Assembly: GCA_015655015.1 (NCBI GenBank)
Contig: JAATFV010000132.1
Coordinates: 1-64,000 of the forward strand
Length of the DNA stretch: 64,000 bases
From: Chitinophagales bacterium
GTDB lineage: Bacteria; Bacteroidota; Bacteroidia; Chitinophagales; Chitinophagaceae
Direction: 5' to 3'
The notes beneath the pieces are model-generated. The model saw nothing but the letters and a program-made list of their open reading frames with translations. It was not told the DNA's origin and did not search any database. How positions within the stretch are numbered: the stretch's first letter is position 1; every line of letters begins with the position of its first letter. This document shows, one piece after another, positions 11,726 through 33,593 of the stretch. The translations under genes and the position numbers were made by a program.

Positions 11726-13012
11726 ATGATTAAGTATTTCGCGTTCCTCTTTTACCTGAGCGCAGGTCCGGCCGCCGCCCAGATCACCGACAACCGCCAC
11801 AGCCCCTCACAGACCGCAACCAGCCTCACGCTCGAACAATGTTACCAGCTGGCAGAAGCTACCTACCCCCTCTCCAGGCAAAGAGGGCTCATCGAAAAAA
11901 CACGTGACTACACCATTGACAACATCGCCAAAGGCGTCTACCCCCAGCTCAATGTCTCCGGAACCGCCACCTACCAGTCCGACGTAACAAAAATCTCGGT
12001 CCCCGGTTACACCATCCCCACCGTCTCCAAAGACCAATACAAAGTATACGGCGAAGTGTCTCAAACGCTGAGCGACTTCGGCATCAACAAACAAAAGAAG
12101 CAACTAAGCCGGACCGACGCAGCCATCCAGGAAGAAAATTTAAGCACAGAGCTCTTCAAGCTAAAAGACCGGATCAACCAGCTCTTCTTCGGAGCGCTCC
12201 TGATCGACGGCCAGCTGGAACAAAACGAATTGTCAAAAAAGGATATCCGGATCGGCATGGATAAAGTACAGGCCGCCATCAACAATGGCACCGACTTCAA
12301 CAGCAGCCTGAATAAATTGAAAGCCGAATTGCTGAAGACAGACCAGCATTCCATAGACCTGAAAGCCTCCCGCAAAGCATATACAGACATGCTCAGCCTC
12401 TTCATCAACCAGGACGTTACGGATTCCACTCTCCTGGTAAAACCAGCACCCCCGGCCCTCACCGACTCGATCAACCGGCCGGAGCTGAGAGCATACGATC
12501 TCCAAACAAAATCGTATCTCCAGCAACGCCATCTCACGAAGATCAACAACTACCCGCAGTTGAGCGCGTTCTTCCAGGGAGGCCTCGGCAAACCCTCGCC
12601 CGTCAACTTCCTGTCAACCGATCTGACAGGTTACTACCTGACGGGGCTGCGCCTCAACTGGAATATCGGCGGATTATATACCTATAAAAAAGATCAGCTC
12701 ATCAATAAGAACAACCAGGAATTAGTACAGACCGAGCGGAATACCTTCCTGTTCAATACCTCCCTCACCCTAAGGCAGAAAAACGCAGACATCGTCCGTT
12801 ATCAGCAGCTGATCCAATCGGATAACGAAATTATCAGGCTGCGAGAATCCGTGAAGCAGACCTCCGCCGTCCAATTGGAGAACGGCGTCATCACCACCAA
12901 CGATTACCTGAACGATATCAACGAGGAAGCACTGGCGCGCCAGGATCGGGTACTCCATGAAACACAGCTGCTCATATCCCAATACGACCATAAAACAACA
13001 TCCGGTAATTAA
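11726..13012 (+). CDS. TolC family outer-membrane efflux protein
   Basis: A 428-residue outer-membrane channel protein. It has a signal peptide (FAFLFYLSAGPAAAQ) and the family start LTLEQCYQLAEATYPL. Long helical repeats rich in Gln, Asn and Leu follow, with barrel strands such as LTGYYLTGLRLNWNIGG. It would form the exit duct for the ABC pump encoded downstream. It is first in a same-strand run of six genes under the TetR operator. A short tandem repeat fills the gap to the next gene. Confidence 0.9.
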   Translation: MIKYFAFLFYLSAGPAAAQITDNRHSPSQTATSLTLEQCYQLAEATYPLSRQRGLIEKTRDYTIDNIAKGVYPQLNVSGTATYQSDVTKISVPGYTIPTVSKDQYKVYGEVSQTLSDFGINKQKKQLSRTDAAIQEENLSTELFKLKDRINQLFFGALLIDGQLEQNELSKKDIRIGMDKVQAAINNGTDFNSSLNKLKAELLKTDQHSIDLKASRKAYTDMLSLFINQDVTDSTLLVKPAPPALTDSINRPELRAYDLQTKSYLQQRHLTKINNYPQLSAFFQGGLGKPSPVNFLSTDLTGYYLTGLRLNWNIGGLYTYKKDQLINKNNQELVQTERNTFLFNTSLTLRQKNADIVRYQQLIQSDNEIIRLRESVKQTSAVQLENGVITTNDYLNDINEEALARQDRVLHETQLLISQYDHKTTSGN

Positions 13013-18119: not shown

Positions 18120-19778
18120 TTACAGCGACACCCCCCTCTTCCAGGGAATAAAATCATCCTGCACATGACGAATAGACGCCACTTCAATATCCCCGCTCGC
18201 AACGCCGATCACATAATCCAATATCCTTATTCCCGCCTGCTGGATCGTCTCCGTTCCTTCGATGATCGTGCCGGTATTGATATCGATGATGTCCCGCATA
18301 CGTTCGAACAGCGCCGTATTGCTGGCAATCTTCACAACCGGCGCTACCGGATTGCCCGTAGGCGTTCCCAGCCCCGTGGTGAACAGAACGATATTGGCCC
18401 CGGAAGCTACTTCTGCCGTAGTAGACTCCACATCATTACCGGGAGTGCATAATAAATTAAGTCCCGGCTTACTTACCTTCTCCGGATAATCCAGCACCGC
18501 CGTAACAGGAGAAGTCCCCCCCTTTTTAGCTGCCCCCGCAGACTTGATCGCATCCGTGATCAGCCCATCCCGGATATTGCCGGGAGAAGGATTCATATCA
18601 AAACCCGACCCTACCGCCTTGGCCCTGTCATTATAGGTCCGCATGAGATAAGAGAATCGTTCGGCAGTATCTGTATCCACACAGCGATCACTGAGATTTT
18701 GCTCTACCCCGCATAACTCGGGAAATTCGGACAGGATAACGGAGCCGCCCAACGCTACCAGCAGATCGGAAGTATACCCGATCGCCGGATTGGCGGAGAT
18801 CCCCGAGAAGCCATCCGATCCGCCGCATTCCAGGCCAATGCATAATTTGCTCAAAGGCGCCGGCTGACGTACCTGCTGGTTCGCCAGTATCAGTCCGGCA
18901 AAAGTTTGTTTAATAGCTTCCGATAATAATTCCGACTCCTTTCCAACTTTCTGCTGCTCCAGGATATACATGGGCTTGGAAAATTGAGGACTGCGTTTTT
19001 TGATCTCCTCTTCCAGCATGCTGACCTGCGCATTCTGACAACCCAGGCTCAGCACCGTCACCCCCGCCACATTCGGATGAGTGATATAACCGGCCAGTAA
19101 GCCGCACAAGGCCTGGGCATCCTGCCGGGTGCCCCCGCATCCTCCGTCATGATTAAGGAATTTGATCCCGTCCACGTTAGGGAACAGCCGCTGATTGGCA
19201 TTCTTTTCATAATCGGCATGCAGGTCCGTCGCCAGGATCTGCTCTACGCTTTTTCCCGACTTATATAGCTCAATAAGCTGTTTGGACTGTTTTTGATAAG
19301 ACCTGTTCCTGCCATAACCCAGGTCCGTCACCAACGCCTGCTGCAGCACATCCAGGTTCCTGTTCTCGCAGAACACCATCGGCACGACTACCCAATAATT
19401 TGCTGTCCCCACACTGCCGTCGGCCCGGTGATAACCATTGAACGTCCTGCCGGCAAAAGCGCTGACATCCGGTATCACCCAATTCGTATGCCGCTCACCG
19501 ACGGTAAAATCACTGGCCGCATGTTTCACATTGGCCGTGCTGATCAACCCGCCTTTCCTGATGGCTTCCTGCGCCTTGCCCACCAACACCCCATACATGA
19601 TAATAGGATCTCCGGCAGCCAGGTCAACCATAGCAAATTTGTGTTTGGCTTTTACAATTTCCTGTATCGTATACGTCTCCCCTTCAAAGACAACAGTATC
19701 ACCTTTCGCCAGCGGGGTCAGCGCTACCAATACATTGTCGGCATGATGAACTTTCAGGACAGTTTGTTGTGTATTCAT
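18120..19778 (-). CDS. uxaA: UxaA family dehydratase (altronate dehydratase; possible L-fuconate role)
   Basis: A protein of about 551 residues that dehydrates D-altronate to 2-keto-3-deoxy-D-gluconate. An N-terminal SAF domain (HHADNVLVALTPLAKGD) is joined to the iron-dependent dehydratase domain, which has NHDGGCGGTRQD, a GLECGGSDGFSGISANPAIG loop and the late TTGLGTPTGNPVAPV segment. An ATG five codons upstream (19793) is possible. It follows uxaB, eda and kdgK on the same strand and ends a twelve-gene run. No enolase-type L-fuconate dehydratase is present in the run. UxaA homologues occur in the fucose locus of Campylobacter jejuni, so this enzyme might also serve that step; that second role is inference. 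Confidence 0.9.
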   Translation of the reverse strand: MNTQQTVLKVHHADNVLVALTPLAKGDTVVFEGETYTIQEIVKAKHKFAMVDLAAGDPIIMYGVLVGKAQEAIRKGGLISTANVKHAASDFTVGERHTNWVIPDVSAFAGRTFNGYHRADGSVGTANYWVVVPMVFCENRNLDVLQQALVTDLGYGRNRSYQKQSKQLIELYKSGKSVEQILATDLHADYEKNANQRLFPNVDGIKFLNHDGGCGGTRQDAQALCGLLAGYITHPNVAGVTVLSLGCQNAQVSMLEEEIKKRSPQFSKPMYILEQQKVGKESELLSEAIKQTFAGLILANQQVRQPAPLSKLCIGLECGGSDGFSGISANPAIGYTSDLLVALGGSVILSEFPELCGVEQNLSDRCVDTDTAERFSYLMRTYNDRAKAVGSGFDMNPSPGNIRDGLITDAIKSAGAAKKGGTSPVTAVLDYPEKVSKPGLNLLCTPGNDVESTTAEVASGANIVLFTTGLGTPTGNPVAPVVKIASNTALFERMRDIIDINTGTIIEGTETIQQAGIRILDYVIGVASGDIEVASIRHVQDDFIPWKRGVSL

Positions 19779-19826
19779 AAAGTTTTTTTTCATTTCATAT
19801 ATATCCGCCCACGCGGGTCACCTTGT

Positions 19827-21446
19827 TCACAACCGCACCCCGCCCTGTTGCCGGGCCAGCGCAGCGGCGGCGCCTTTGTTGATCAAAATAGCCAGATCCT
19901 CCCTCACAGATGCTTCAAACCCTTTTAACAAGGTCAGATCCTCCCCCCATAAATTCTTGTCCTTCAGCACAAGCGTAACCACCTCTTCTGGGCTGCGATC
20001 CTTCCACAGCCCGAAATAATAACCGGCCTTATCATCATTGATAGGATATGCCTGCCCGCGATATTCTCCCTTGTACTGTTCTCCTTCTTTCTTTACCGCC
20101 TTCATGAACAACAGGTAAGCGGCAAACCCCAGGGAGAAATGCGGCAGCGGCGTCTCCTGCCCTTTATAATGCTGCAGCAACACCGGAATATTCCTCATTC
20201 GCATCTTGGAAGAATATTGCATGGTAATGCTGAGCCATTGATGTTGAATATGCGGATTGCGAAACCGGTCCAGCACCTGCAGCCCGAAATCCTGCGCTTC
20301 CTGCAAAGGCAGCTTATAAGGAATAGCCGGGGCAATCTCCTTCAGCATCAGATCGGCTACGAAAGAAGAGAAGCCGGGATCGTCCATCGCATTTTTTACC
20401 GTGGCAAAACCCGCCAGGAAAGCCAGCCCGCAGCTCAGCGTATGCGTGCCATTCAACAGGCGCAGCTTCAGCTCACGGAATATCTCTATATCCGGCCGTA
20501 TGATCACACCCGGATCGGCTTTCGCAAAAGAAAGAACAGACTGCACGTTCTCATCTCCCTGAATAGCCCACAAACGATAGACTTCCGATATCGCCAGCAG
20601 ATCATCCTGGTAACCCAGATCCTGCTGCAACTGAGCCAGCGTTGCCGCATCCGGTTTACCCGGCACGATCCTGTCCACCAGCGAGCTGCAAAACCGGCAA
20701 TGCTCTTCCAGCCAGCTGATAAAGCCAGCCTCCAGCTGGCTGATCTGCGCCAGCTCCTTTACAATAGCCCCCAGTTTCTTCCCGTTACCCGTGATCAGCT
20801 CTGTGGGAACCACCACCATTCCGCTGGCAGGACTTCCTTTGAACGCCTGATAACGTTCATATAGAAAAGCCAACAACTTACCCGGGAAAGAAACAGGCGA
20901 CGCAGTCCTACCCTCACCGGATATACTACCCTCCCCGGATGAACCGGATGAATTACCATCACCTAATGAACTATTATCTCCGGAAGGGCGACCGCCAACG
21001 ATCAGTCTATCCTCCTTCACCAGCTGTATCCCCACTTCCGTCGTATTGGAAATAATAACCTGCATTTCCGGATTGTGCGCACACTGCAAAATCTCCTTCC
21101 ACTGATCCCTGGCAGACAATACCCGGCTGATCGCAGAACAAATAATATTTTCCTCAGTCTTCTTCCCCTGCCCGATCCCCCGGACACAGAGCGTATACAA
21201 CCCATCCTGCCGGTCGAAGACGCCGGAATCCCCGGAATCCGTAGACTTCACCACCACGATCCTTCCATTAAAAACACCCTGGCGATTGGCCTTATCGATG
21301 AAATAATCCGGCAGGCCCCTTAATAATACGCCGGTCCCGAATTGCAGCACTTTTTCCGGCAGCGTAAAAATGTCTTTGCCGGGCTTGATCACACCGGGCG
21401 TCTTAATAGTTGCCAGATTATCTTTAGAAAGGTTCATGCTATTCAT
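19827..21446 (-). CDS. uxaB: Tagaturonate reductase (altronate oxidoreductase), with Gly/Ser insert
   Basis: A 539-residue mannitol-dehydrogenase-family enzyme that reduces D-tagaturonate to D-altronate with NADH. The Rossmann start VLQFGTGVLLRGLPDYFIDKA, the TTEVGI segment, PVSFPGKLLAFLYERY and the catalytic-domain KLRLLNGTHTLSCGLAFLAG motif are all present. Residues 152-182 form a Gly/Ser/Asp-rich low-complexity insert that is not part of the family pattern and makes the protein longer than E. coli UxaB. It overlaps eda by 4 nt and is followed by uxaA after about 50 nt. Confidence 0.92.
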   Translation of the reverse strand: MNSMNLSKDNLATIKTPGVIKPGKDIFTLPEKVLQFGTGVLLRGLPDYFIDKANRQGVFNGRIVVVKSTDSGDSGVFDRQDGLYTLCVRGIGQGKKTEENIICSAISRVLSARDQWKEILQCAHNPEMQVIISNTTEVGIQLVKEDRLIVGGRPSGDNSSLGDGNSSGSSGEGSISGEGRTASPVSFPGKLLAFLYERYQAFKGSPASGMVVVPTELITGNGKKLGAIVKELAQISQLEAGFISWLEEHCRFCSSLVDRIVPGKPDAATLAQLQQDLGYQDDLLAISEVYRLWAIQGDENVQSVLSFAKADPGVIIRPDIEIFRELKLRLLNGTHTLSCGLAFLAGFATVKNAMDDPGFSSFVADLMLKEIAPAIPYKLPLQEAQDFGLQVLDRFRNPHIQHQWLSITMQYSSKMRMRNIPVLLQHYKGQETPLPHFSLGFAAYLLFMKAVKKEGEQYKGEYRGQAYPINDDKAGYYFGLWKDRSPEEVVTLVLKDKNLWGEDLTLLKGFEASVREDLAILINKGAAAALARQQGGVRL

Positions 21447-22111
21447 TTTTCGTTCATTACGGTCTTTACCAGCTCCATTGCCAGCATCGTTTGTTTATAT
21501 AAAAGCTCATATTGCCCATTCTTCAAAACCTCCTTGCTGATCAGCTTGCTTCCCATCCCTACCGCACAAACGCCGGCCTTAAACCAGGACCGGATATTCT
21601 CTAAATTCAGTTCCACCCCGCCTGTGGGAATGAACAGCTGGCCCTGGAATAGCTCCCGGATCGAGCTGACAAATTCAGGACCGAGAATATTAGCGGGAAA
21701 TATTTTGATCAGCGCTGCCTGGTGCTGCTGCGCCAGGTTGATCTCAGTGGGTGTCATACATCCGGGTATCCAGAGCAGCCCCGCTTTTTCCGCCAGCACA
21801 GCCACTTCGGGGCTGACAATCGGAGAAACGATAAAATCCGCTCCCGCCTTTATAAAAGCTTCCGCTTCCCCGGCAGTCTTCACGGTTCCTATCCCCAGGT
21901 AGAGACCGGGAGCTTCCCCGGACAGCTCCTTTTTCAGGAACTGGAAATTTTCCAGGGCTGCCGGCCCCCGGTTGGTATATTCCAGCGCACGAATGCCCGC
22001 CCTGTATAAAGTCCGGATTATTTCCAGGCTCACCGTGGGACTGTCCCAATAAAATAAAGGCAGCATCCCCTGATCTAATATGCTTTGCAGAATTGTTTTC
22101 TTATCGCTCAT
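21443..22111 (-). CDS. eda: 2-keto-3-deoxy-6-phosphogluconate aldolase
   Basis: A 222-residue class I aldolase of the KDPG/KHG family that splits KDPG to pyruvate and glyceraldehyde 3-phosphate. The catalytic Glu lies in ALEYTNRGP (E44) and the Schiff-base Lys in LIKIFPA (K136), both at the positions expected from E. coli Eda (E45, K133). FIPTGGV is the phosphate-binding end. It overlaps kdgK by 11 nt upstream and uxaB by 4 nt downstream, so the genes are translationally coupled. Confidence 0.93.
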   Translation of the reverse strand: MSDKKTILQSILDQGMLPLFYWDSPTVSLEIIRTLYRAGIRALEYTNRGPAALENFQFLKKELSGEAPGLYLGIGTVKTAGEAEAFIKAGADFIVSPIVSPEVAVLAEKAGLLWIPGCMTPTEINLAQQHQAALIKIFPANILGPEFVSSIRELFQGQLFIPTGGVELNLENIRSWFKAGVCAVGMGSKLISKEVLKNGQYELLYKQTMLAMELVKTVMNEK

Positions 22112-23126
22112 ATGTTTGGATAAATTTTTCTATCTCGGCCACTTTCTGATCAGTGGCGTCACTGGTGATGAATAATTTCTGAAAAGCAGCCGCCGTAGCA
22201 AATTCAAGCATCTCCTGCAAAGGCAGGTTCTTATAACGTCCATAGATCAGCCCTGCCATATAACAATCCCCGCTGCCAACCTTATCCACGATCCTGTCCG
22301 CAAAATATTCCGCAGAATGATACAGTTGCTTGTCCGCCCATAAAGTCGTGTAATACCGGATACCGGAGGCGCCTTTGTCAAACCGGAACGTATTGGCCAC
22401 CAGGCCGGCCTTCGGGAATTTTTCTTTTATCTGCTCACTGGTACGGGCTGCATGTTGTAAGTAATCTTCTTTTGTGCTGCTCTCCGAAATGGAAGGGTCC
22501 ACCGGGATACCCAGCATTTTTTCAGCTGCCCAGAGATTGCCCATGATCACATCGCAATACTCCGCCAGTCGCGGCATCACCGCAATAGGAGCCACTCCAT
22601 ATTGCCAGAGCTTGGGCCGGTAATTCAGGTCAAGAGAAATAGTGATCTTTCTTTCCGCAGCCGCTTTCACGGCCTCTTCACAGATAGCCGCCGCGGGACT
22701 GTTCAGAGCCGGGGAAATGGCGCTGAAATGCAGCCAGCTTACATCCGTTAACACAGCGTCCCAATCGATGCTGCCGGGCTGCAGCTCCGAAAAAGAAGAA
22801 TGGTCCCTGTCATAGATCACCCCTGCATTCTTCAGGTCCTTCCCCTGCGGCAGAAAATAAAGCCCTATACGCTGCCCCTGGTAGAGTACCCGGGAAATAT
22901 CGATATTCCGCTGCTGTAAATAGCCGGTCACCTGCCGGGCCATGAGATTTTCCGGCAACGCGGTGAAATAAGCAGAAGGTATCCCCCAGGTAGCCAGTGC
23001 GGTAGCGACATTCGCCTCTGCTCCGCCTACATAGAAAGGAAGGGTGTTGTTTTGCAGCCATTCCCCCCCGGTATCCGGGCAGATCCGTAACAATAGCTCT
23101 CCAAAAGACAATACTGCTTTTTTCAT
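22101..23126 (-). CDS. kdgK: 2-keto-3-deoxygluconate kinase (PfkB family)
   Basis: A 341-residue sugar kinase of the ribokinase/PfkB family. The N-terminal GGAEANVATALATWG motif and the C-terminal KVGSGDCYMAGLIYG anion-hole motif (Asp as catalytic base) are clear; the latter has GSGD where most members have GAGD. Its place between the GH95 gene and eda shows that the product is most likely KDPG. Together with uxaA, uxaB and eda it completes the lower part of a hexuronate-type pathway. Confidence 0.9.
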   Translation of the reverse strand: MKKAVLSFGELLLRICPDTGGEWLQNNTLPFYVGGAEANVATALATWGIPSAYFTALPENLMARQVTGYLQQRNIDISRVLYQGQRIGLYFLPQGKDLKNAGVIYDRDHSSFSELQPGSIDWDAVLTDVSWLHFSAISPALNSPAAAICEEAVKAAAERKITISLDLNYRPKLWQYGVAPIAVMPRLAEYCDVIMGNLWAAEKMLGIPVDPSISESSTKEDYLQHAARTSEQIKEKFPKAGLVANTFRFDKGASGIRYYTTLWADKQLYHSAEYFADRIVDKVGSGDCYMAGLIYGRYKNLPLQEMLEFATAAAFQKLFITSDATDQKVAEIEKFIQTYER

Positions 23127-23180
23127 CCATTCATTTTATAAATACTTCGAATCATGGACCAAAAGATCCATCCTGCAAAA

Positions 23181-25655
23181 TTACAACGCTATCAGATCAT
23201 ATGCCTGCCCTTTTTCCGTAGGAAACGATAGCACATACCCATTGTTCCCGGAACGGGTGGATCGTATCTTCTTCCCCGTCAGCATGACAGGCCTGGCCGT
23301 CCTTATCTTACAGACCCCTCCGGTAAGGGACTTTATCCGGGCGCTCGCCAACAGGTGGTTCTCCCAGCTCATATCCACCTCATACCCTCCTCTCGCCTTC
23401 AGCCCCTTTACCTGTCCAGCCTTCCAGGTTTCGGGCAGGGCCGCCAGAAGATGGAGCTCCCCCAAATGACTTTGGATCAGCATCTCGGCCATCCCGGCCG
23501 TCCCGCCGAAATTTCCATCGATCTGGAACGGAGGATGCGCATCGAAAAAGTCCGGATAGGTGCCGCCGCCTTCTCCATAATTCGTTTCCGTCTCGCTGGT
23601 ATAATGTAATAATTGCCGCAGCAGGAGATAAGCGTGATTCCCGTCCAGCAGCCTTCCCCAGAAATTGATCTTCCAGGCCTTGCTCCAGCCCGTCCCCTCA
23701 TCGCCTCTTATCTCCAGCGTTTTCCTGGCCGCCGCCGCAAAGACAGGGGTAGAAACGGGAGCTATCTGCCGACCGGGATATAACCCGAACAAATGGGAGG
23801 TATGCCGGTGATGCACTTCCACATCCTCAAAATCCTTGTACCATTCCTGCAGATTGCCTTTATGACCGATATGAAGCGGATACAATTTCTTTCTCTTAGC
23901 GATCAGCAGGTCCCGGAAGGTCGCATCCTCACCCAGAACGTTAGCGGCATCGATCAGGTTCGTGAACAGATCCCATATGATCGACATATCCATCGTCGTG
24001 GCTACGGACACACTGGCCTGTTTACCGGGAGCATAAAAGAAATCATTTTCCGGGGACATCGATGGCGCCGTCACCAGCCAGCCATCCTTGTCTTCCACCA
24101 GCCAGCCCAGGCAAAAGGTGGCAGCTCCCTTCATCAACGGGTAAGCCCGGTCTTTCAAAAATTGTTTGTCGCCCGTGAACTGGTAATGTTCCCACAAATG
24201 CTGGCACAGCCAGTTACCGCCCATCGCCCAGTTGGCCCATTTAGGATCTCCATGGCCCATGTCCCCCACCGGGTTGGACAGCGCCCATATATCCGAGTTA
24301 TGATGGGCCACCCATCCATCCAGGTTATAGAACTCTTTAGCGGTCGTCTTACCCGTCGTAGCGATATCCCCGATCAGATCGAACAGGGGCTCGTGCAGCT
24401 CCGAAAGGTTGGTTACCTCCGCAGGCCAGTAATTCATCTGGGTATTGATATTGATCGTATAGTTGGAGCTCCAGGGCGCCCGCAGCTCTTTATTCCAAAG
24501 CCCTTGCAGGTTGACAGCCTGTCCCCCCGGCCGGGAGCTGGAGATCAGCAGGTACCGGCCAAATTGAAAATATAAAGTCTCCAATCCCGGATCATAAGCT
24601 CCCCTGGAATAGGCCTTCAGTCGTTCGTCGGAAGGCAATGCCCTCGGACCCTTAGTCGTATCCTTAAGAATAAAGCTCACCCGGTCAAAATAATGATGAA
24701 AATCAATCCGGTGAGCCTCCAGCAGGCTCTCCCAGGACTTAGCACCCGCTTTATCAAGATAGCTCCGCGCCAGCTGATCCTCATCCTTTCCTTCTTTATC
24801 CGGGCACTTGTCAAAGCCGTTAAAGCTCGTGGCGGCAGAAAGGAGCAGGAGCACCTCCGTGGCATTGCTGACATGCAGGCCGCTGCTGTCCGCCAGCACC
24901 GTTCCATCCTTCGCCAGCGCCCGCATCCTCATTTCAAAGCGCATCCCATCACAGGAATTGCTGTCGGTATATATGATCGGCTCCTTATTCTCATTATAAT
25001 AACTGGGGTCTACATGAGCAGGCGCCTTGCCCTTTATCACCCATTCATCCGCGCCGGCAGGCACAACCCGGTAATGCAGCGCGCTCTTGATCCCCGCCGT
25101 AAAATTCAATCCTCCGGCCTTGCCTGACAACAGCCGGATCACGATCACCTGGTCGGGAGCAGAGACAAAGACCTCCCGGGTAAACTCCGTTCCGTCGATA
25201 GTAAAGGTAGTGGTAGCGACCGCATCATGAATATCCAGGTCCCGGTAATAGGCGGTAGGAACGGCGCCTTTAAAATCCTGCCGGATCGACAGGTCTCCCA
25301 TCGGCAAATAAGACTCGGTGTACAACCCCTGCATCTTCCGGGCAAGTCCGGCCGCTTTATTATAATCTGCATCCTTCAGCAAAGCCTCCCTGATCTGCGG
25401 CAAATAAGCCGGCGCATCCGGATTTACATTCGTCTTAACGGGACCGCCCGACCATAGAGAGCTTTCATTCAACTGGATCAGCTCTTCATTCACTTTTCCA
25501 AACACCATCGCCCCCAGCCGTCCGTTTCCGATCGGCAATGCCTCTGTCCAGGTTTTAGCCTCCTGCTTGTACCAAAGCCGCAGATCCTGCGCCGAAACAG
25601 CCATTCCGATACCGGGTCCGGCCAGTAATAACAGTGAACAGATTCTTTTTAACAT
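23181..25655 (-). CDS. Glycoside hydrolase family 95 (alpha-L-fucosidase or alpha-L-galactosidase)
   Basis: An 824-residue secreted inverting glycosidase. After a signal peptide, the N-terminal beta domain starts with [29 protein letters not shown]. The (alpha/alpha)6 domain has [17 protein letters not shown], whose two Asn match the catalytic pair known from Bifidobacterium AfcA, then [14 protein letters not shown] and [17 protein letters not shown] with the catalytic-region Asp. Family members release terminal alpha-1,2-L-fucose, and some prefer L-galactose. The surrounding genes handle both sugars, so the sequence alone does not decide the substrate. It lies between kdgK and the LgoD-like gene on the same strand. 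Confidence 0.93.
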
Positions 25656-25715
25656 TAGCTGATTGAATAAATATACCTGGTTAAATAATTACTCTATTAA
25701 CTCATCATTGGTCTC

Positions 25716-26729
25716 TCACAGCTCGACCACCGCCTTTATAACCCCATTAGCCGGGTCCAGCCATTTTTCAAACTCTTCTTTCACCTCTCCGAAACCCACC
25801 CGGTTCGTGATATACGTAGTAGGATCGATCTTCTTTTTCTTCATCGACTCCATCACCTTGACAAAATCTTCTCTCGTAGCATTGCGGCTGCTCATCAGGG
25901 TAGCTTCCCGCTTATGAAATTCCGGATGGCTGAATGTTATCTCTCCCTTCTGGAGCCCGACCAGCACATAACGGGCTCCATGCGCGAGATATTGAAAAGC
26001 GTTATTGATAGCCGCCCTGCTCCCCGTCGCATCGATCACCGCCGTCGGCATATCTCCCCGGGTGATATGCAGCAGCAGCTCCATCGCATCCCCTGAACCG
26101 GGATTCACCGTATGCAGCAAGTGCAGCCTGTCCCGGCAGAATTTCAAGCGGTCTTCATTGATATCCATCGCGATCACCTCCCCTCCCGCGATCCGCGCAG
26201 CCTCCATGGTGCCCAGCCCGATAGGACCGGCCCCGATGACCAGCACAAACTCACCCGGTTTAATGGCCGCTCTCCGGACGGCATGCGCCCCGATCGCCAG
26301 CGGCTCTACCAGGGCCAGCTCATCATAGCTCAATCCTTCCCCATGCACCAGCGACGAGGAAGGAACGGATAAATATTCCACCATTCCCCCGTCGATATGC
26401 ACACCGCATACTTTTATAGTGGTGCAGCAATTCGGCTTGCCATTCCTGCAGGCAATGCAGGTACCGCAGTTAAAATAAGGGATGATAGTCACGGCCTCTC
26501 CCGGCTTGAAACCTGGCGCCTTGTCAAAATCCACCAGGTCCCCCGCCAGCTCATGGCCCAAAATGCGGGGATATTCAAAATAAGGCTGCGTCCCTTCATA
26601 AGCATGCAGATCGGTCCCGCAGATGCCGATGCGCCTGATCTTTATTATGGCTTGTCCCGGCTTGGCCAGGGGAGCATTGATCTCCCTGTATTCAAATTCC
26701 CCGGGTTTTACACAAACTAGTGCTTTCAT
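25716..26729 (-). CDS. lgoD: Zinc-dependent alcohol dehydrogenase, LgoD-like (L-galactonate 5-dehydrogenase)
   Basis: A 337-residue medium-chain dehydrogenase. The catalytic zinc ligands lie in [17 protein letters not shown] and GHE, and the structural zinc Cys in [15 protein letters not shown]. The NAD fold is [10 protein letters not shown]. From memory, many blocks match E. coli LgoD (YjjN), including the [13 protein letters not shown] region, [15 protein letters not shown] and the [18 protein letters not shown] segment. LgoD oxidises L-galactonate to D-tagaturonate, the substrate of UxaB, and uxaB lies in the same gene run. Threonine or sorbitol dehydrogenase activity is the main alternative, but neither fits the context. 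The LgoD assignment is probable and untested. Confidence 0.75.
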
Positions 26730-26764
26730 TTTTCATGGTTATTTTCAATTCAGGCAGGGCCAGC

Positions 26765-27553
26765 TCATGCATTCGCCAATGCCCTGTCCAGGTGTACATA
26801 TCCCCCGTCCACATGGATCAGCTGGCCGGTAGTATGGCTGGATCTCGCCGACAGCAAAAAGGCCGTCATATTCGCTATCTCTTCAGACGTAGTCATCCTG
26901 TTCTCCAGCGGTATCTTCTGAACGATCTCCTTCAGCTTCTCTTCAGGGTTAGCCAGCGTCTTGACCCACTTCTCATACAAAGGCGTCCAGCATTCCGCCA
27001 CAACGATAGCATTCACCCGTATGCTATCCTTCAGCAGCTCCACCGCCCATTCCCGGGTCAATGCATTACGTCCCCCATTGGCAGCTGCATACCCGGAGGT
27101 ATTTCCCTGTCCCGTTTCGGCAGTCTTGCTGCTGATATTGACAATGGCCCCCTTCGACTTCCGCAGGGCAGGCAGCGCATGATGCACCAATAAATAATAG
27201 TGCACCAGGTTCCTGTGCAGGGAGGCTATAAAACCTTCATAGCTGCCGCTTTCCAATCCCACGCCATCATTGACCCCGGCATTGTTCACCAGCCCGTCGA
27301 TCCGGCCGGTTTTCGCCAGCACAGCCTTCACCGCCTGTTCACAGGCGGAAGGCTCCGTCAGCTCAGCCACCACCTGGTAGGCTCTTCCGCCGGCGGCCTC
27401 GATGGCAGCCACCGTCGCCAGATTATCCTCCTCGTTCCTGCCAATGATAAAAGGGATAGCTCCCTCCCCGGCCAGCACCCTGGAGATCCCTTCTCCGATG
27501 CCCTTGGCCCCGCCTGATACGATGATCACTTTATCTTTTAACTGTAAGTCCAT
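26765..27553 (-). CDS. L-fucose dehydrogenase-type SDR with Asn at the catalytic Lys position
   Basis: A 262-residue short-chain dehydrogenase. The Rossmann motif is SGGAKGIGEG (13-22), with NNAG at 90-93 and NISSK near 139-143. The C-terminal VAECWTPLYEKW block is one I associate with L-fucose dehydrogenases, which oxidise C1 to the lactone and often accept L-galactose. The catalytic Tyr is Y155, but the usual YxxxK reads YAAAN: residue 159 is Asn (codon AAT, 27077-27079). This may be a subfamily trait or may change activity. It is followed upstream on the operon by the lactonase gene (9-nt gap). Confidence 0.78.
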   Translation of the reverse strand: MDLQLKDKVIIVSGGAKGIGEGISRVLAGEGAIPFIIGRNEEDNLATVAAIEAAGGRAYQVVAELTEPSACEQAVKAVLAKTGRIDGLVNNAGVNDGVGLESGSYEGFIASLHRNLVHYYLLVHHALPALRKSKGAIVNISSKTAETGQGNTSGYAAANGGRNALTREWAVELLKDSIRVNAIVVAECWTPLYEKWVKTLANPEEKLKEIVQKIPLENRMTTSEEIANMTAFLLSARSSHTTGQLIHVDGGYVHLDRALANA

Positions 27554-27562
27554 ATCTGTCTT

Positions 27563-28411
27563 TTAAAGATTATAAAATTGGATGGCATTGCCGCCAAAAA
27601 ACGCTTCCTGTTCAGCCGTCGAATAACGGCTGAAATAATCCTTCACCAATCCGTAAACCTGCTGATAAGAGCCCGCTACCAAACATACCGGCCAGTCGGA
27701 CCCATACAGGATCCTTTTCATACCAAACGCCTCGACCACCACATCCAGGTAGGGTCTTATGTCTTCCGGCTTCCAGTTCTTCCAATCCGCCTCCGTCACC
27801 ATTCCGGAAAGCTTGCAGAACACATTTTCATGGGCCGCAACGGCCCGGATAGCAGCCTTCCATTCATCAGTCAGCTTCCCATCCTTGATAAAAGGTTTGG
27901 CAATATGATCGATCACGAAAGGCTGATCCGGAAAAGAAGCCGCAAAATCACGCGTATAGCCCAGCTGATCAGGATAGATCAGGATATCATAGGTGAAACC
28001 GAACTTCTTCAGCAAAGAAATCCCTTTTTTAAAAGCAGGCTTCAGCATCATCGCCCTGTCTTTCTCCCCCTGCAGTACATGGCGGAATCCTTTCATCTTT
28101 GGCCTGGTCTTGTAATAAGCCAGCTTCTCCTCCACAGCAGCGTCCTGGAGATTCACCCATCCTACCACTCCTTTAATGAAATCATGGCCTCGGGCATTTT
28201 CCAGCTGGAAGTCATTCTCATCCTCCGACTGATCGGATTGTACGACGACACTTCCCGTTATTCCAGCCGCTTCCAGCACAGGCGCCAGGTCGGCCGGTAA
28301 AAAATCCTTTTGGATCACGGACATTTCCGGACCGATCCAGCTATCCCGGATGGGATCGAATTTCCAGAAATGCTGATGTGCGTCTATTTTCTCCATCTGC
28401 CCTGCGTTCAT
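27563..28411 (-). CDS. Amidohydrolase-family lactonase (L-fuconolactonase type)
   Basis: A protein of about 282 residues of the amidohydrolase_2 group. It opens with KIDAHQHFWKFDP and continues with the family blocks GVVGWVNLQD, KGFRHVLQGE, FVIDHIAKP, CKLSGMVTEADW and RILYGSDWPVC. Members hydrolyse L-fucono- and L-galactono-lactones and related sugar lactones. The frame extends to 28462, but that overlaps the hydrolase gene; starts at 28411 or 28396 fit, and the latter has AGGG just upstream. The context (fucose dehydrogenase on one side, diketo-deoxyfuconate hydrolase on the other) supports the role. Confidence 0.88.
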   Translation of the reverse strand: MNAGQMEKIDAHQHFWKFDPIRDSWIGPEMSVIQKDFLPADLAPVLEAAGITGSVVVQSDQSEDENDFQLENARGHDFIKGVVGWVNLQDAAVEEKLAYYKTRPKMKGFRHVLQGEKDRAMMLKPAFKKGISLLKKFGFTYDILIYPDQLGYTRDFAASFPDQPFVIDHIAKPFIKDGKLTDEWKAAIRAVAAHENVFCKLSGMVTEADWKNWKPEDIRPYLDVVVEAFGMKRILYGSDWPVCLVAGSYQQVYGLVKDYFSRYSTAEQEAFFGGNAIQFYNL

Positions 28412-28415
28412 TTTT

Positions 28416-29282
28416 TTAAGAATAAGCCACCACCTTCTGCTGCGTTTTCCCCAATCCGTCAATCCCCAACTCCACTAAATCACCTGGCTGCAAATATACC
28501 TGCGGATTCATGCCCAGGCCAACACCAGCCGGCGTACCGGTAGAGATCACATCTCCCGGCAATAAGGTCATGAACTGGCTGGTATAAGCGATCAGGAAGG
28601 GTATCCGGAAGATGAGATTGGATGTATTGCCATCCTGCATAGTCTTTCCGTTCACCGTAAGCCACAACCGAAGGTTATCGATATTACCCATCTCATCGGG
28701 AGTAGCCATCCAGGGGCCCAGGGGAGCGAAGGTATCACAGCCCTTTCCCTTATCCCAGGTGCCGCTGCGTTCTATCTGGAATTCCCGTTCGCTCACATCA
28801 TTGTGAAGACAATAACCCGCCACATAGCCGAGGGCTTCGGCTTCCGTAACATAACTGGCTTTTTTCCCGATAACGACGGCCAGCTCCACTTCCCAGTCTG
28901 TCTTTTTGGAGTTCCTGGGAATAACGATATCGTCAGCAGGCCCGCAGAGAGCCGTTGTCGCCTTCATGAAAATAACGGGCTCCGGAGGAGGAGTAGCCCC
29001 TGTCTCCTTCGCATGGTCCGCATAGTTCAGCCCGATGCAGATGATCTTGGAAGGACGGGCTACCGGAGATCCCAGTCTCGCGCCGGCCGGAACCTGGGGC
29101 AGCTTAGTGCCTCCACCCGGCGCATTATGCTGCGTTACAAACTGCTGCAATTTCTCCAGGCCCCCGCCGCCAAAGAATTCCTCGTTATAATCCTGCCCAA
29201 AGGCGGAAGTATCATAATATTTATCATTCAGAACAATGCCTGTCTTTTCTTTACCCAGGCTGCCATGTCTTATAAGTTTCAT
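28416..29282 (-). CDS. Fumarylacetoacetate hydrolase family protein (2,4-diketo-3-deoxy-L-fuconate hydrolase type)
   Basis: A 288-residue FAH-fold enzyme. The core has CIGLNYADHAKETG, PVIFMKATTALCGP, the metal-binding ExE region WEVELAVVIG, HNDVSEREFQ and the closing GDVISTGTPAGVG. In the non-phosphorylating L-fucose route this enzyme cuts 2,4-diketo-3-deoxy-L-fuconate to pyruvate and L-lactate. Adjoining genes encode the lactonase, 5 nt downstream, and the matching dehydrogenase upstream. The general FAH family is certain and the exact substrate is inferred from context. Confidence 0.85.
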   Translation of the reverse strand: MKLIRHGSLGKEKTGIVLNDKYYDTSAFGQDYNEEFFGGGGLEKLQQFVTQHNAPGGGTKLPQVPAGARLGSPVARPSKIICIGLNYADHAKETGATPPPEPVIFMKATTALCGPADDIVIPRNSKKTDWEVELAVVIGKKASYVTEAEALGYVAGYCLHNDVSEREFQIERSGTWDKGKGCDTFAPLGPWMATPDEMGNIDNLRLWLTVNGKTMQDGNTSNLIFRIPFLIAYTSQFMTLLPGDVISTGTPAGVGLGMNPQVYLQPGDLVELGIDGLGKTQQKVVAYS

Positions 29283-29385
29283 GCTTAGATTTTTTATTAA
29301 TTACTCCTCAGAAAAAATTCTTGGATATGCCCCTTCAAATCCGGCTCTCCAATTTAAAATTCAACATTCAACATTCAAAATAACG

Positions 29386-30150
29386 TCAATTGTTGAGCCG
29401 CGTAAACCCTCCATCGATCGGGTAATCGCAGCCCGTAATGAAAGAAGCCTCCTCACTGCACAGGTACAGGATCAACCCCGCAATCTCTTCCGGTTTCGCC
29501 ATCCGGCCGATCGGCTGCGTCCTGGACAGCTTCTCGAACATCTCCGCTTCCTTCCCCGGGTAGTTCTTTTTCAGGAACCCATCCACGAAAGGAGTATGCA
29601 CCCGCGCAGGAGAAATGCTGTTGCACCGGATCTTGTCATGGATATAATCCTTCGCCACAGAAAGGGTCATAGCAGAAACCGCTCCCTTGGTCATAGAATA
29701 GGCAAACCGATCCGGGATACCTACCAGCGCAGCAATGGAAGACATATTGATGATTACGCCTCCTCCCTGCTGTTTCATCAGGGGAATGGCTGCAAACAGG
29801 CAATTGTACACTCCCTTTACATTCACACTGTACAACCGGTCGAAATCCGCTTCCGGAGTCGTCTCCACCGTCCCTACATGCGACACGCCGGCGCTGTTCA
29901 CCAGGATGTCCACCTTCGGTAATTCCCCGAACACTTTCAGCACCTGGTCCTGCTTCGATACATCCGCGACCAGCGCAGCGGCAGTCCCGCCCGCCGCCTC
30001 TATTTCCTTTACTGTTTCCAATGCCTGTCCTTCATTAAGATCCACTGCGTACACCCGGGCGCCCTGTTTGGCCAGGAGAAGGGCCACGGCCTTGCCGATC
30101 CCGCTGCCGGCGCCGGTGATTACCGCATGTTTTTGCTGCAAACTGAACAT
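29386..30150 (-). CDS. SDR dehydrogenase (2-keto-3-deoxy-L-fuconate dehydrogenase type)
   Basis: A 254-residue SDR with an intact active site: TGAGSGIGKA near residue 12, NSAGVSHVG, MSSIAA with the catalytic Ser, YSMTK with Tyr and Lys, then the conserved C-terminal end GCDYPIDGG. In the oxidative L-fucose pathway an enzyme of this class oxidises C4 of 2-keto-3-deoxy-L-fuconate. The gene lies 6 nt after the mutarotase gene and about 100 nt before the hydrolase gene. Unlike the other SDR of the operon it keeps YxxxK. Confidence 0.82.
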   Translation of the reverse strand: MFSLQQKHAVITGAGSGIGKAVALLLAKQGARVYAVDLNEGQALETVKEIEAAGGTAAALVADVSKQDQVLKVFGELPKVDILVNSAGVSHVGTVETTPEADFDRLYSVNVKGVYNCLFAAIPLMKQQGGGVIINMSSIAALVGIPDRFAYSMTKGAVSAMTLSVAKDYIHDKIRCNSISPARVHTPFVDGFLKKNYPGKEAEMFEKLSRTQPIGRMAKPEEIAGLILYLCSEEASFITGCDYPIDGGFTRLNN

Positions 30151-30156
30151 GTTATT

Positions 30157-30498
30157 TTATATTGACTGGTTTAAAGAAAATATTTGCTTCATCAATATCC
30201 ACTTTTCCCCCGGCTTGCTGCCCGCGATGGGTTGCTGAAACTTCCACAACATCTGCTCCCATTCCTGCACTTTTGCATTCGCCGCATCCATCGCTCCCTT
30301 CCTTTCAAAACTGAAGTCGTCCTCCGTCTCCATGATCATAAAGAGGCGGTTGCCCAGCCGGAAGATCTGCATATCCGTGATCCCCGACTCCACAATACTC
30401 TTCCGTATCTCCGGCCAGATCGCCCGGTGAATAGCCTCATACTCTGCAATCAATGCTGCATCGTCTTTTAGATCTACTGTTAAACTATATCTTTTCAT
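30157..30498 (-). CDS. L-rhamnose/L-fucose mutarotase family protein
   Basis: A 113-residue RhaM-type ferredoxin-like fold protein that interconverts alpha and beta anomers of 6-deoxy-L-sugars. Family features are the KRYSLTVDLKDD start, EYEAIHRAIWPEI with its conserved His, MQIFRLGNRLFMIMET and the WEQMLWKFQQ block. The same type of small gene accompanies fucose genes in Campylobacter. Here it supplies the anomer used by the 1-dehydrogenase. Confidence 0.9.
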   Translation of the reverse strand: MKRYSLTVDLKDDAALIAEYEAIHRAIWPEIRKSIVESGITDMQIFRLGNRLFMIMETEDDFSFERKGAMDAANAKVQEWEQMLWKFQQPIAGSKPGEKWILMKQIFSLNQSI

Positions 30499-30632
30499 GA
30501 CAAAAAAAGTTTTAATAACTGCCTTTTAACAAACCCGGTACTACTAACAATTCCTGTTCAAAAACAAACCATACCTTGATAGCGAACCCCGTCCAGGTAA
30601 CAGGCCCGGTTATTCTGTTGACCACCCCTGTT

Positions 30633-31862
30633 CTAATGCCTGAATGCCACCTTCACCTCAGAGGAGGAAGCCGATCCGTTCTTCACCCGGTACCCCTTCC
30701 ATCCATACCAGGCCACCACCACGAAACAACACAGCGGTACCGCATAGGAAGTAGCGGTAGAATAATTTTCCGACAGCTTCCCCATGACATAAGGCATCAG
30801 CGCTCCGCCTACAATCGACATAATGAGAAAGGAGGAGGCTTTTTTAGTATTGTGCCCCGTATCTTTAATCCCCAGCGCAAAAATGGTCGGAAACATGATG
30901 GACTCAAAAAAGAACACTGCCATCAGCGCATAGACCGAAAGCCATTCTTTATTGAGGATCACGAGGGCGCATAGCACTATATTAATGAGCGCATACACCA
31001 TCAATATTTTGTTGGGAGCGATCCTTCGCATCAGCGCCGTCCCGATGAACCGGCCGGCGGTGAACAGAGCCAGACTTATGGAAAGGAACACCGATGCTTT
31101 GGCATTGTCGATCTCTATTTTGGCCTCTGTACAATAATTGATGAACAAGGCCGCAATGCCCACCTGTGCCGCCACATAAAAAAATTGTGCTACCACGCTG
31201 CCCACGAAATGGCTATGGCTGAATAAAGGCTTTGTATCCTGCACCTGCGCTGACACGATCTCCTCTTCTTTAATTTCCGGCAGCTTCGTCCGCATAAATA
31301 ATCCTGCCACGCATAACACCACAACCCCGATAATAATATAAACCAGCTTTACAGAATCAAGATTACGGGTTTCCTTGCCCCCAAAAAATAAAGTCGCCGC
31401 AATGATCGGCCCCAAAAACGACCCCACCCCGTTAAAGCATTGCGAAAGATTCAGTCTTCCCTCGGACGTCTCCGGCGTACCCAGCACCGTCACATAAGGA
31501 TTGGCAGCCGTCTCCAGGCAGGCCAGCCCGGAAGCAATAATGAATAAGGCCAGGAGGAAAAAATTAAAGCTCGACTGCTCAGCCGCGGGATAAAATAAGA
31601 ATGCCCCCAGGGCATACAGCAGCAGCCCTAAAATGATCCCTTTCTTATACCCGTATTTGTTCATAAACAATCCCGCAGGCAGGGCGATCAGAAAATAAGC
31701 CCCGAAATAAGCCCCCTGCAACAGGGTAGATCTGGACCGGGTAATGTTGAGCGTCTCCTGGAAATGCTTATTTAAAACATCTAATAAGCCATACGCAAAA
31801 CCCCAGAGGAAGAACAGCGAGGTGACGAGGATGAAAGGAAATAAGAATTTGTTCTTTGACAT
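30633..31862 (-). CDS. fucP: L-fucose:H+ symporter, FucP type (MFS)
   Basis: A 409-residue major-facilitator permease with about twelve transmembrane helices. The start SLFFLWGFAYGLLDVLNKHFQ, GAYFGAYFLIALPAGLFMNKYGYKKG and LETAANPYVTVLG are typical of the fucose/glucose-galactose FucP-GluP group. E. coli FucP is known to carry L-fucose, L-galactose and D-arabinose with protons. It is the first gene of the twelve-gene run, so the operon promoter should lie between 31863 and 32063. Confidence 0.9.
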   Translation of the reverse strand: MSKNKFLFPFILVTSLFFLWGFAYGLLDVLNKHFQETLNITRSRSTLLQGAYFGAYFLIALPAGLFMNKYGYKKGIILGLLLYALGAFLFYPAAEQSSFNFFLLALFIIASGLACLETAANPYVTVLGTPETSEGRLNLSQCFNGVGSFLGPIIAATLFFGGKETRNLDSVKLVYIIIGVVVLCVAGLFMRTKLPEIKEEEIVSAQVQDTKPLFSHSHFVGSVVAQFFYVAAQVGIAALFINYCTEAKIEIDNAKASVFLSISLALFTAGRFIGTALMRRIAPNKILMVYALINIVLCALVILNKEWLSVYALMAVFFFESIMFPTIFALGIKDTGHNTKKASSFLIMSIVGGALMPYVMGKLSENYSTATSYAVPLCCFVVVAWYGWKGYRVKNGSASSSEVKVAFRH

Positions 31863-32063: not shown

Positions 32064-33593
32064 TCAGCAGTCTTTTATGAGGTAGTCGTTCACGGCTTTT
32101 TTTTCCGAAGAAAAGTTGATGCCAATAGCTACTTTTTTCCTTGGATCCAGCTGATAGGGCCGCAGGTAGTCTTTTTCTATTATCTGGTCCAACGCCTTTT
32201 GGGCGGTTGAGTCCAGTTTAAATTCCATTATATAAATGTGAGTCTTGGTCATTACGCTGGCGTCCAGGCGTCCCGTAGCGGAATTTACTTCACTGGCGAT
32301 TTGGATGCCAAGCAATTGAAACGTATTATGAAGAAGTCCGTGATAGAACGATTCTTTTGCCCCTGTCCATAGCTGATTAGGGATATCGACAAGCAACGTA
32401 TCTATAATTCGGATGACTTTAGCTATATCATTGCGGATGAAAGCTATTTTCAGCTCTGTTATATTGGGCCGGACATAACCTGGTTCGATATAGCTATAAG
32501 CCGCTATCAGGTAGACCAATACGCTCTCTTTTACCTCCCTGTTCGGATATCCGAGTGTATACAGCCTGTTTTCTTTATCATAAGATTTGATAGTCAGATA
32601 GCCGGTTTGGAACATCAGGGTGAGGGGGTTTATATGCCCGATATTCAAATCATTCAGCGCCTCCGGGCCTGCTATCATATCGCTATCTGTAAAAGTAAAA
32701 TCAGGCCGCGAACGTACCTGCTTAATCAAAAAATAAGGAGTGCCGGTATCTATCCAGTAATTTTGAAAATCATTAGCATCAATAAAATTGAGGAGAGAGA
32801 AAGGGTTATACACTCTATTAATACCGTCCCAGGAATAACCATTATACCATTCTTTGATTTCCTGCACAATATTGGACTGGGAGATCTGCATTTGCGCTAT
32901 TTCCATAGCGAAATTGCTTTCCAATTCCTGCTGGGTGATGCCTGCAAGGGTGGTGTATCTCAGATGGAGCGTTATATCGTTCAGATTATTGAGGTCCGAG
33001 AAGATACTTACTTTGGAGAACCGGCTAACGCCAGTTATCAGCAACAGGCGGATGTATTCATCGGCGTCTTTCAATACGGAATAGAAGCTTTTAAATACGG
33101 AGCGGTTTTCTTCGACTTTAGGAATGTCGTCCAGGTAGTCTATAGTGGGCTTGTCATATTCATCTATTAATATTACCACCTTACCATTGGCTGCGGTCTT
33201 TTTAATTAATTCACTAAACTTTGCCTTGATATTGGTGCTCTGCAATTTAAACCCAAATTCTTCCGCCAGTTTATCTAATTCCTGGTTAATAGCTTCCTTC
33301 AAACCAACTTCCTGGTAAGGCATTTGGCTAAACTTAAGGTGTATTACCGGGTGCCGTTGCTCCCAGTTCCAATTATCGGCTATCCAAAGTCCTTTGAACA
33401 ACTCCTTGTTCCCGCTGAAGATCTCTTTGATGGTAGACAACAGCAGTGATTTTCCGAAACGCCGCGGCCGGCTCAGGAAGTAATAACTGCCGGATTCGAT
33501 CAGCGTATGGATCAGGCGGGTTTTGTCAATATACAAAAAGCCGCCTTCTCGTATTTTCCTGAAATCCTGTAAGCCGATCGGGTATTTATGCAT
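32064..33593 (-). CDS. AAA-ATPase-like / PD-(D/E)XK nuclease superfamily protein
   Basis: A 509-residue protein of a family common in Bacteroidota. The N-terminal AAA-ATPase-like domain has YIDKTRLIH, the Walker A SRPRRFGKSLLLST and Walker B VVILIDEYDKP. The C-terminal domain (about residues 400-509) carries the PD-(D/E)XK-like pattern GRLDASVMTKTHIYIMEFKLD, with Asp, Glu and Lys in the expected order. The cellular role of these proteins is not established as far as I know. It stands alone: genes on both sides belong to unrelated operons. The base composition is AT-richer than the fucose operon next to it. Confidence 0.88.
   Translation of the reverse strand: MHKYPIGLQDFRKIREGGFLYIDKTRLIHTLIESGSYYFLSRPRRFGKSLLLSTIKEIFSGNKELFKGLWIADNWNWEQRHPVIHLKFSQMPYQEVGLKEAINQELDKLAEEFGFKLQSTNIKAKFSELIKKTAANGKVVILIDEYDKPTIDYLDDIPKVEENRSVFKSFYSVLKDADEYIRLLLITGVSRFSKVSIFSDLNNLNDITLHLRYTTLAGITQQELESNFAMEIAQMQISQSNIVQEIKEWYNGYSWDGINRVYNPFSLLNFIDANDFQNYWIDTGTPYFLIKQVRSRPDFTFTDSDMIAGPEALNDLNIGHINPLTLMFQTGYLTIKSYDKENRLYTLGYPNREVKESVLVYLIAAYSYIEPGYVRPNITELKIAFIRNDIAKVIRIIDTLLVDIPNQLWTGAKESFYHGLLHNTFQLLGIQIASEVNSATGRLDASVMTKTHIYIMEFKLDSTAQKALDQIIEKDYLRPYQLDPRKKVAIGINFSSEKKAVNDYLIKDC

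Follow-up and report, generated by a model that had tools for sequence, protein, structure and literature searches.

A predicted two-branch operon for L-fucose and L-galactose use in a Chitinophagales bacterium, with UxaA as a candidate L-fuconate dehydratase

The window analysed here, a stretch of 64,000 nucleotides of contig JAATFV010000132.1 from a Chitinophagales bacterium (assembly GCA_015655015.1), contains a run of twelve genes at positions 18120-31862. All reading frames are open and lie on the minus strand, in the order described by the first-pass annotation: fucP, a mutarotase gene, sdr1, genes for an FAH hydrolase, a lactonase and an L-fucose dehydrogenase (FDH), lgoD, a GH95 gene, kdgK, eda, uxaB and uxaA. 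The run probably forms one operon, in which two branches, for L-fucose and L-galactose, leave a common trunk. In the proposed scheme, the GH95 glycosidase would release L-fucose and/or L-galactose, and FucP would take up both sugars. The mutarotase and FDH would provide the 1,5-lactone, which the lactonase would open to L-fuconate or L-galactonate. L-galactonate would then be converted by LgoD, UxaB, UxaA, KdgK and Eda to pyruvate and glyceraldehyde 3-phosphate, and L-fuconate would be dehydrated, most likely by UxaA, and processed by SDR1 and the FAH hydrolase to pyruvate and L-lactate. Galacturonate would enter at tagaturonate via UxaC, which is encoded elsewhere in the genome.

A proposed shared trunk with separate exits

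The division into a trunk and two exits is based on the comparison with related loci. Among a first set of 80 loci with a close FDH, the order of the operon without GH95 recurs at two, L002 (genome G001) and L017 (G014). It is also present, again without GH95, in G084, a genome of the same genus; the gene run is thus not due to chance. Three galactose-only loci (L008, L060 and G114) retain the trunk, lgoD, uxaB and uxaA, with lgoD located between the FDH gene and uxaB, but lack SDR1 and the FAH hydrolase at the locus, which argues for a shared trunk and separate exits. The genomes of L008 and L060 (G006 and G042) do carry an FAH hydrolase elsewhere. The original interpretation, a shared entry through FucP, mutarotase, FDH and lactonase and a separate LgoD-UxaB-UxaA-KdgK-Eda exit, is upheld by these loci, while its argument from uxaC is not (see below). 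Other loci among the 80 combine fucose genes with uxaA and contain neither lgoD nor uxaB. A Persicobacter plasmid locus (L097) joins a lactonase, a Zn-dependent dehydrogenase, fucP, a mutarotase, UxaA and a tagaturonate reductase. In G104 and G107, fucose genes, lgoD, uxaB and uxaA occur together; their UxaA proteins form a separate branch, and kdgK and eda are lacking.

A further set comprised 117 genomes of the window's family, in which UxaA (at 1e-150) was found in 76 and FDH (at 1e-90) in 59. The family is presumably Chitinophagaceae, since two of its members, G112 and G147, share their UxaA coordinates with the genomes of L008 (Chitinophagaceae bacterium UBA7600) and L040 (Segetibacter aerophilus). 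UxaA is present in 58 of the 59 genomes with FDH versus 18 of the 58 without it (Fisher test, 4e-16, from a hand count that ignores relatedness). The neighbourhoods of all 61 FDH places in these 59 genomes were read, some of which end at contig edges. Fucose genes together with lgoD, uxaB and uxaA were found at four places (G000, which is the genome of the window, G084, G104 and G107), and two places are galactose-only. At five places, fucose genes abut uxaB-uxaA-uxaC without lgoD (L224, L226, L238, L239 and L240), and twelve have fucose genes and uxaA without uxaB, among them G064, which has lgoD and uxaC. FDH with uxaA (two places), fucose genes with lgoD only (three), FDH with lgoD (one) and other arrangements (ten) were also seen. 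A FucD-like gene was found at none of the 61 places within the stretches examined. In nine of 20 LgoD neighbourhoods read, a gene for FucP, a mutarotase or FDH lies no more than about 5 kb away. At L201, L204 and L216, the LgoD-like gene adjoins fucP, a mutarotase gene and an aldo/keto-reductase-like gene, an arrangement that may provide a second entry for L-galactose; an NCBIfam scan at 1e-30 gave no match for the aldo/keto-reductase-like proteins of L204 and L216.

The gene names given in the first pass match the Pfam and NCBIfam family scans, the latter of which left out UxaA and GH95. The mutarotase, GH95 and UxaA exceed their Pfam model cut-offs, and the lactonase, FAH hydrolase, KdgK, Eda and LgoD-like protein have NCBIfam matches below the curated cut-offs. 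FucP (30633..31862), a sugar:H+ symporter of 409 amino acids, scores 349 bits with TIGR00885 (cut-off 280). The RhaM-type mutarotase (30157..30498; PF05336, 106.6 bits) presumably acts on both L-fucose and L-galactose; an NCBIfam scan at 1e-8 gave no match for it. FDH (26765..27553), a short-chain dehydrogenase/reductase (SDR) predicted to use L-galactose as well, matches NF052481 with 415 bits (cut-off 300), and its closest solved structures are 4gkb, 4glo and 4gvx, the last of which was reported to be FucA of B. multivorans (PMC11199699). The predicted L-fucono-1,5-lactonase, an amidohydrolase (27563..28411), has NF052480 as its sole NCBIfam match at 1e-8 (277 bits, cut-off 400), and its reading frame possibly starts at a TTG at 28462.

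Two further genes are predicted to belong to the fucose branch. SDR1 (29386..30150; S137/Y151/K155) is a predicted type-4 L-2-keto-3-deoxyfuconate (L-KDF) 4-dehydrogenase: its residues Arg148, Arg183, Phe192 and Thr211, read by position, fit the R-R-F-T pattern of this type, for which an enzyme of Sphingobacterium mizutaii has been assayed (PMC11199699). The FAH protein (28416..29282), a predicted 2,4-diketo-3-deoxy-L-fuconate hydrolase, matches NF053535 with 347 bits (cut-off 500) and has the L-2,4-diketo-3-deoxyrhamnonate hydrolase 8gsr as its closest solved structure. The sequence data thereby support a predicted L-fucose set of transporter, mutarotase, FDH, lactonase, type-4 L-KDF dehydrogenase and FAH hydrolase. 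LutABC-like lactate-utilisation genes, recognised by reading, adjoin fucose clusters at L018, L022, L064 and others, which fits L-lactate as a product. A phosphorylating fucose route was rejected, since matches to the fucose isomerase family PF02952 in the genome reach only 43, 23 and 23 bits, making a true FucI unlikely; the search did not extend to FucK or FucA.

The intergenic distances are, in the order of transcription, 134, 6, 103, 4, 9, 35, 60, 54, -11, -4 and 33 bases, and this spacing (gaps of at most 134 bases) suggests that the twelve genes would be transcribed together. The count of sigma-70-like and terminator-like sites in a pattern scan did not exceed that in shuffled sequences, and no TTTG/TAnnTTTG pair of the Bacteroidota promoter pattern was found. 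The relaxed TTG/TAnnTTTG pattern has one match, which lies within the FAH gene, and a single unpaired TAnnTTTG is located at 23176-23183, ahead of kdgK. An open reading frame (ORF) of 509 amino acids at 32064-33593, 5' of fucP, resembles an AAA-ATPase-type protein as judged by sequence reading. No regulator adjoining the operon was recognised by eye, the neighbouring genes not having been scanned. The source genome comprises 8.1 Mb in 259 contigs, with an estimated completeness of 97% and contamination of 5.85%.

The predicted L-galactonate exit, GH95 and galacturonate

The L-galactonate set is supported, as a prediction from family matches and gene order, by five genes. The LgoD-like Zn-dependent dehydrogenase (25716..26729), a predicted L-galactonate 5-dehydrogenase, shares 45% identity with E. 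coli LgoD across 336 amino acids. The tagaturonate reductase UxaB (19827..21446) matches NF002969 with 553 bits (cut-off 359), and UxaA (18120..19793) belongs to the altronate dehydratase family (PF20629, 316 bits), so that both predicted functions are present in the operon; in a tree of the family, UxaA is placed among rows linked to uxaB or uxaC and has Asn254. KdgK (22101..23126) is a PfkB-family 2-keto-3-deoxygluconate (KDG) kinase (PF00294, 113 bits), and Eda (21443..22111) a 2-keto-3-deoxy-6-phosphogluconate aldolase (NF005499, 214.7 bits, cut-off 275). UxaB has 539 amino acids in the window versus 487 (G014) and 493 (G001) in the open frames of its closest relatives, and contains a Ser/Gly-rich insert at residues ~150-180, which breaks the match to relatives near 145-183.

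The absence of uxaC, a gene expected for galacturonate use, was noted in the first pass. This is correct for the operon and wrong for the genome: uxaC is encoded on another contig (G000:C140:87077-88468, 686 bits), by which the argument against galacturonate use is ruled out. UxaB has a single match in the genome at 1e-40, and one copy of UxaA was found. With uxaC encoded elsewhere and these sole copies in the operon, UxaB and UxaA very probably serve galacturonate as well.

The GH95 glycosidase (23181..25655; PF22124, 606 bits) could be an alpha-L-fucosidase or an alpha-L-galactosidase. Its residues T400, N402 and N404 lie within a TININT motif, and Thr400 corresponds to the Thr370 position. 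A Thr/His difference at this position, formerly regarded as a mark of L-galactosidases, was rejected as a guide to specificity because the Thr is also present in the strict fucosidase XacAfc95, as reported in PMC8245568. In G107, a GH95 protein (61% identity) occupies the same slot after lgoD as in the window, and in G003, another (44%) follows lgoD apart from the fucose operon. These positions give a hint, no more, of a link to galactose; from its sequence, GH95 is not assignable to either sugar.

The L-fuconate dehydration step

A gap in the fucose branch was overlooked in the first pass: no FucD-type L-fuconate dehydratase was found in the operon in the ORF list or in the Pfam and NCBIfam scans. 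UxaA appears to be the likeliest enzyme for this step, with a FucD-like gene on contig C9 as its rival. L-fuconate, L-galactonate and D-altronate have the same configuration at C2-C4, which makes L-fuconate a plausible substrate of UxaA. One UxaA-family enzyme was reported to act on D-arabinonate (100%), D-altronate (12%), L-fuconate (5.6%) and L-galactonate (2.4%) (PMC6336799), and a UxaA homologue has been hypothesised to dehydrate L-fuconate in C. jejuni (PMC12566272).

The distribution of the candidates was followed in a second set of 50 genomes, consisting of G000 and 49 genomes reached via 50 of the 80 loci, with L006 left out. UxaA was found in 49 of them (1e-40), the FAH hydrolase in 50 (1e-60), UxaB in 42 (1e-40), UxaC in 48 and an LgoD-like protein in 41 (1e-60; only 46% identical in G025 and partial in G039). 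A FucD-like match was obtained in nine of the 50 genomes at 1e-50, one of them partial. In 17 (G002, G004, G005, G007, G008, G010, G015, G018, G020, G027, G029, G030, G033, G038, G040, G041 and G046), the locus contains FDH, SDR1 and the FAH hydrolase, UxaA is uxaB- or uxaC-linked and has Asn254, and no FucD-like protein was matched at that threshold; G005 and G033 each have one further, distant UxaA-family match. In the 17 genomes, UxaA must therefore dehydrate L-fuconate unless a member of another family does so (IlvD/EDD, UxuB and UxuA were not searched). UxaB was not found in eight of the 50 genomes at 1e-40, and in seven of these (G011, G012, G019, G024, G026, G035 and G039, not in G045) the single UxaA is located at the fucose cluster.

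A tree of 79 UxaA rows suggests that association with fucose genes arose repeatedly. On well supported branches, the label of the fucose-linked rows has to change at least four times; the loci in which fucose genes abut uxaB-uxaA-uxaC correspond to five changes and the two-branch operons to two. UxaA of the window clusters with those of three other two-branch operons (98/90) and next with three galactose-only proteins (100/95). Four cysteines (142, 219, 252 and 323 in the window protein) are common to all 79 rows and to E. coli UxaA. For a related enzyme, four conserved cysteines were described as the likely ligands of iron (PMC6336799), and Cys252, being invariant, is probably such a ligand. 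Residue 254, two positions past this cysteine, is Asn in all 30 hexuronate-linked rows (uxaB/uxaC), in the three galactose-only rows, in the five rows with fucose genes and uxaBAC, and in E. coli UxaA. Among the 33 rows that are linked to fucose genes and lack uxaB, 26 have His here, as do two rows without readable context. Four of the six two-branch operons, including that of the window, have Asn, and the other two (G104 and G107) have His. Of three further fucose loci not included in the tree, that of G132 has Asn, that of G065 has His, and in G064 the residue pattern gave no match. Because seven of the 33 fucose-linked rows have Asn, and G104 and G107 have His despite uxaB and lgoD, His254 was rejected as a strict mark of enzymes acting only on L-fuconate.

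On the tree, residue 254 requires at least eight changes. In simulations, none of 3000 runs at each of three rates matched the observed difference. A larger number of runs, at the rate closest to the observed number of changes, gave a per-column p of 6e-5, which becomes 0.034 after multiplication by 557; no other column compared in this protein of 557 residues did better. Two slower rates gave corrected values of 0.075 and 0.096, and a faster one gave 0.003. The association between Asn/His254 and fucose linkage is thus suggestive and not proof. A wider proposal, to which we give little better than a one-in-three standing, is that UxaA dehydrates both L-fuconate and D-altronate, was repeatedly recruited to Bacteroidota fucose operons and specialised by the change from Asn to His, the window copy being unspecialised.

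Several observations weigh against a role of UxaA in both branches or against the two-branch operon itself. The window protein has the altronate-type Asn254 and could simply be an altronate dehydratase. For the family enzyme mentioned above, D-altronate was reported to be a roughly 6,700-fold poorer substrate than D-arabinonate (PMC6336799), which indicates that members can be strict. At 22 of the 61 FDH places, fucose genes are present and UxaA, lgoD and a FucD-like gene are all missing from the neighbourhood read; 11 of the 20 LgoD neighbourhoods show none of fucP, mutarotase and FDH at distances up to about 5 kb. A relative of FDH in C. jejuni was reported to be only weakly active on L-galactose, with no gain in growth there. 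The prediction that LgoD is absent where UxaB is absent failed, as a full-length LgoD-like gene is present in four of the eight genomes that lack UxaB (G019, G024, G026 and G035; partial in G039), and UxaE, considered for the missing step, was sought in 15 genomes and found in none.

The most serious competitor, which overlaps with the proposal preferred here, keeps the two branches and assigns L-fuconate to the FucD-like enzyme of contig C9, leaving UxaA with D-altronate only. Of twelve matches to PF13378 in the genome, this one (L101, G000:C9:10997-12196 / 10940-12202) matches Shinella FucD at 1e-50 (42% identity) and PDB entry 1yey with an E value of 2.9e-103. The enolase-superfamily protein aligns over almost its full length with ENOSF1 and X. 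campestris FucD, and its gene, part of a SusC/SusD-type locus, adjoins genes for an SDR and a sodium-symporter-like protein, as labelled by sequence reading. G001 and G014, the two closest carriers of the operon in the 50-genome set, also encode a FucD-like protein. The FucD-like genes of G001, G014, G016, G019, G043 and G048 adjoin a symporter-like gene and that of G028 an SDR gene and a FucP-like gene, with labels partly by reading. However, FucD-like proteins are present in just nine of the 50 genomes, versus all 50 for the FAH hydrolase, and four of the nine (G019, G028, G043 and G048) also have a fucose-linked UxaA, so the FucD-like enzyme is not a simple substitute. This assignment has roughly one chance in three. 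The C9 gene and Asn254 also lower the chance that UxaA serves both branches in the window genome, which we place somewhat below even.

Two further explanations concern the L-galactonate exit. The uxaB-uxaA-kdgK-eda genes could be a hexuronate module that drifted beside a fucose operon, with lgoD being incidental. UxaC in the genome, the sole copies of UxaB and UxaA, the five family genomes in which fucose genes abut uxaB-uxaA-uxaC without lgoD, and the many LgoD-like genes located away from fucose genes are in line with this; the clade of the window has nevertheless omitted uxaC and inserted lgoD, and two-branch operons lie on two separate UxaA branches, which renders such drift unlikely. Slightly less probable still is that L-galactose is degraded by the enzymes of the fucose route, with pyruvate and glycerate as products, and that lgoD-uxaBA serves other sugar acids. 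A type-1 L-KDF dehydrogenase was reported to act on L-2-keto-3-deoxygalactonate with an efficiency roughly one fifth of that for L-KDF (1480 vs 7900; PMC11199699), and conversion of L-galactose to lactate and glycerate was reported, at the level of a title, for mammals. This route, however, does not agree with the galactose-only loci, which have no SDR1 and FAH hydrolase although at least two such genomes have the latter elsewhere, or with the position of LgoD near fucP, mutarotase or FDH in nine of 20 neighbourhoods.

Comparison with known systems

Both routes, the co-location in Halomonas, the galactose operon of Luteolibacter and the promiscuity of the UxaA family are already published. Among the matches listed in a literature search that left subscription journals mostly uncovered and did not target residue 254, no title or abstract opening described a merged operon in Chitinophagaceae; the merger of both routes and the shared dehydratase are the points worth testing. 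If true, one operon would allow the use of two sugars from plants or algae whose only difference is at C6. Fucose operons without FucD would also provide a testable rule, by which the adjoining 'altronate dehydratase' acts as L-fuconate dehydratase; Bacteroidota annotations would be corrected, and a residue test for the sugar acid used by a UxaA-family enzyme would become available.

In the UxaA/GarD family, one member was reported to act on D-arabinonate, D-altronate, L-fuconate and L-galactonate (PMC6336799), and L-fuconate and L-galactonate dehydratases have been predicted among other members; UxaA of the window, known from its sequence alone, is placed among uxaB/uxaC-linked rows of Bacteroidota. 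The fucose branch resembles the oxidative L-fucose pathway of X. campestris, which proceeds via a dehydrogenase, lactonase, dehydratase and KDF dehydrogenase to pyruvate and lactate (PMC5507952, PMC13406643), but the enolase-superfamily FucD used there is missing from the operon. Within the Bacteroidota, BVU_0219 and BVU_0222 of Bacteroides vulgatus were described as L-galactose and L-galactonate dehydrogenases (cited in PMC12632266), and the likeness to the window proteins is one of description. The galactose branch resembles lguABCDEF of Luteolibacter LG18, which converts L-galactose via L-galactonate by LgoD-, UxaB- and UxaA-type enzymes and an Eda step, a pathway reported to be backed by enzyme assays and gene disruptions; in contrast to the proposal made here, LguA is inactive on L-fucose, the KDG kinase LguH is encoded outside the cluster and a fucose branch is not described there (PMC12632266). 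A close precedent for the merger is found in the L-fucose/L-fuconate/L-galactonate loci of Halomonas and Chromohalobacter, where two Halomonas strains join fucose genes with lgoD, uxaA and uxaB (or uxaF). The authors propose combined use of L-fuconate and L-galactonate with a TRAP transporter for the acids, and a complete L-fucose pathway in HL-93 (PMC5507952). Compared with these loci, the operon of the window has FucP as the transporter and no FucD, and includes kdgK, eda and GH95.

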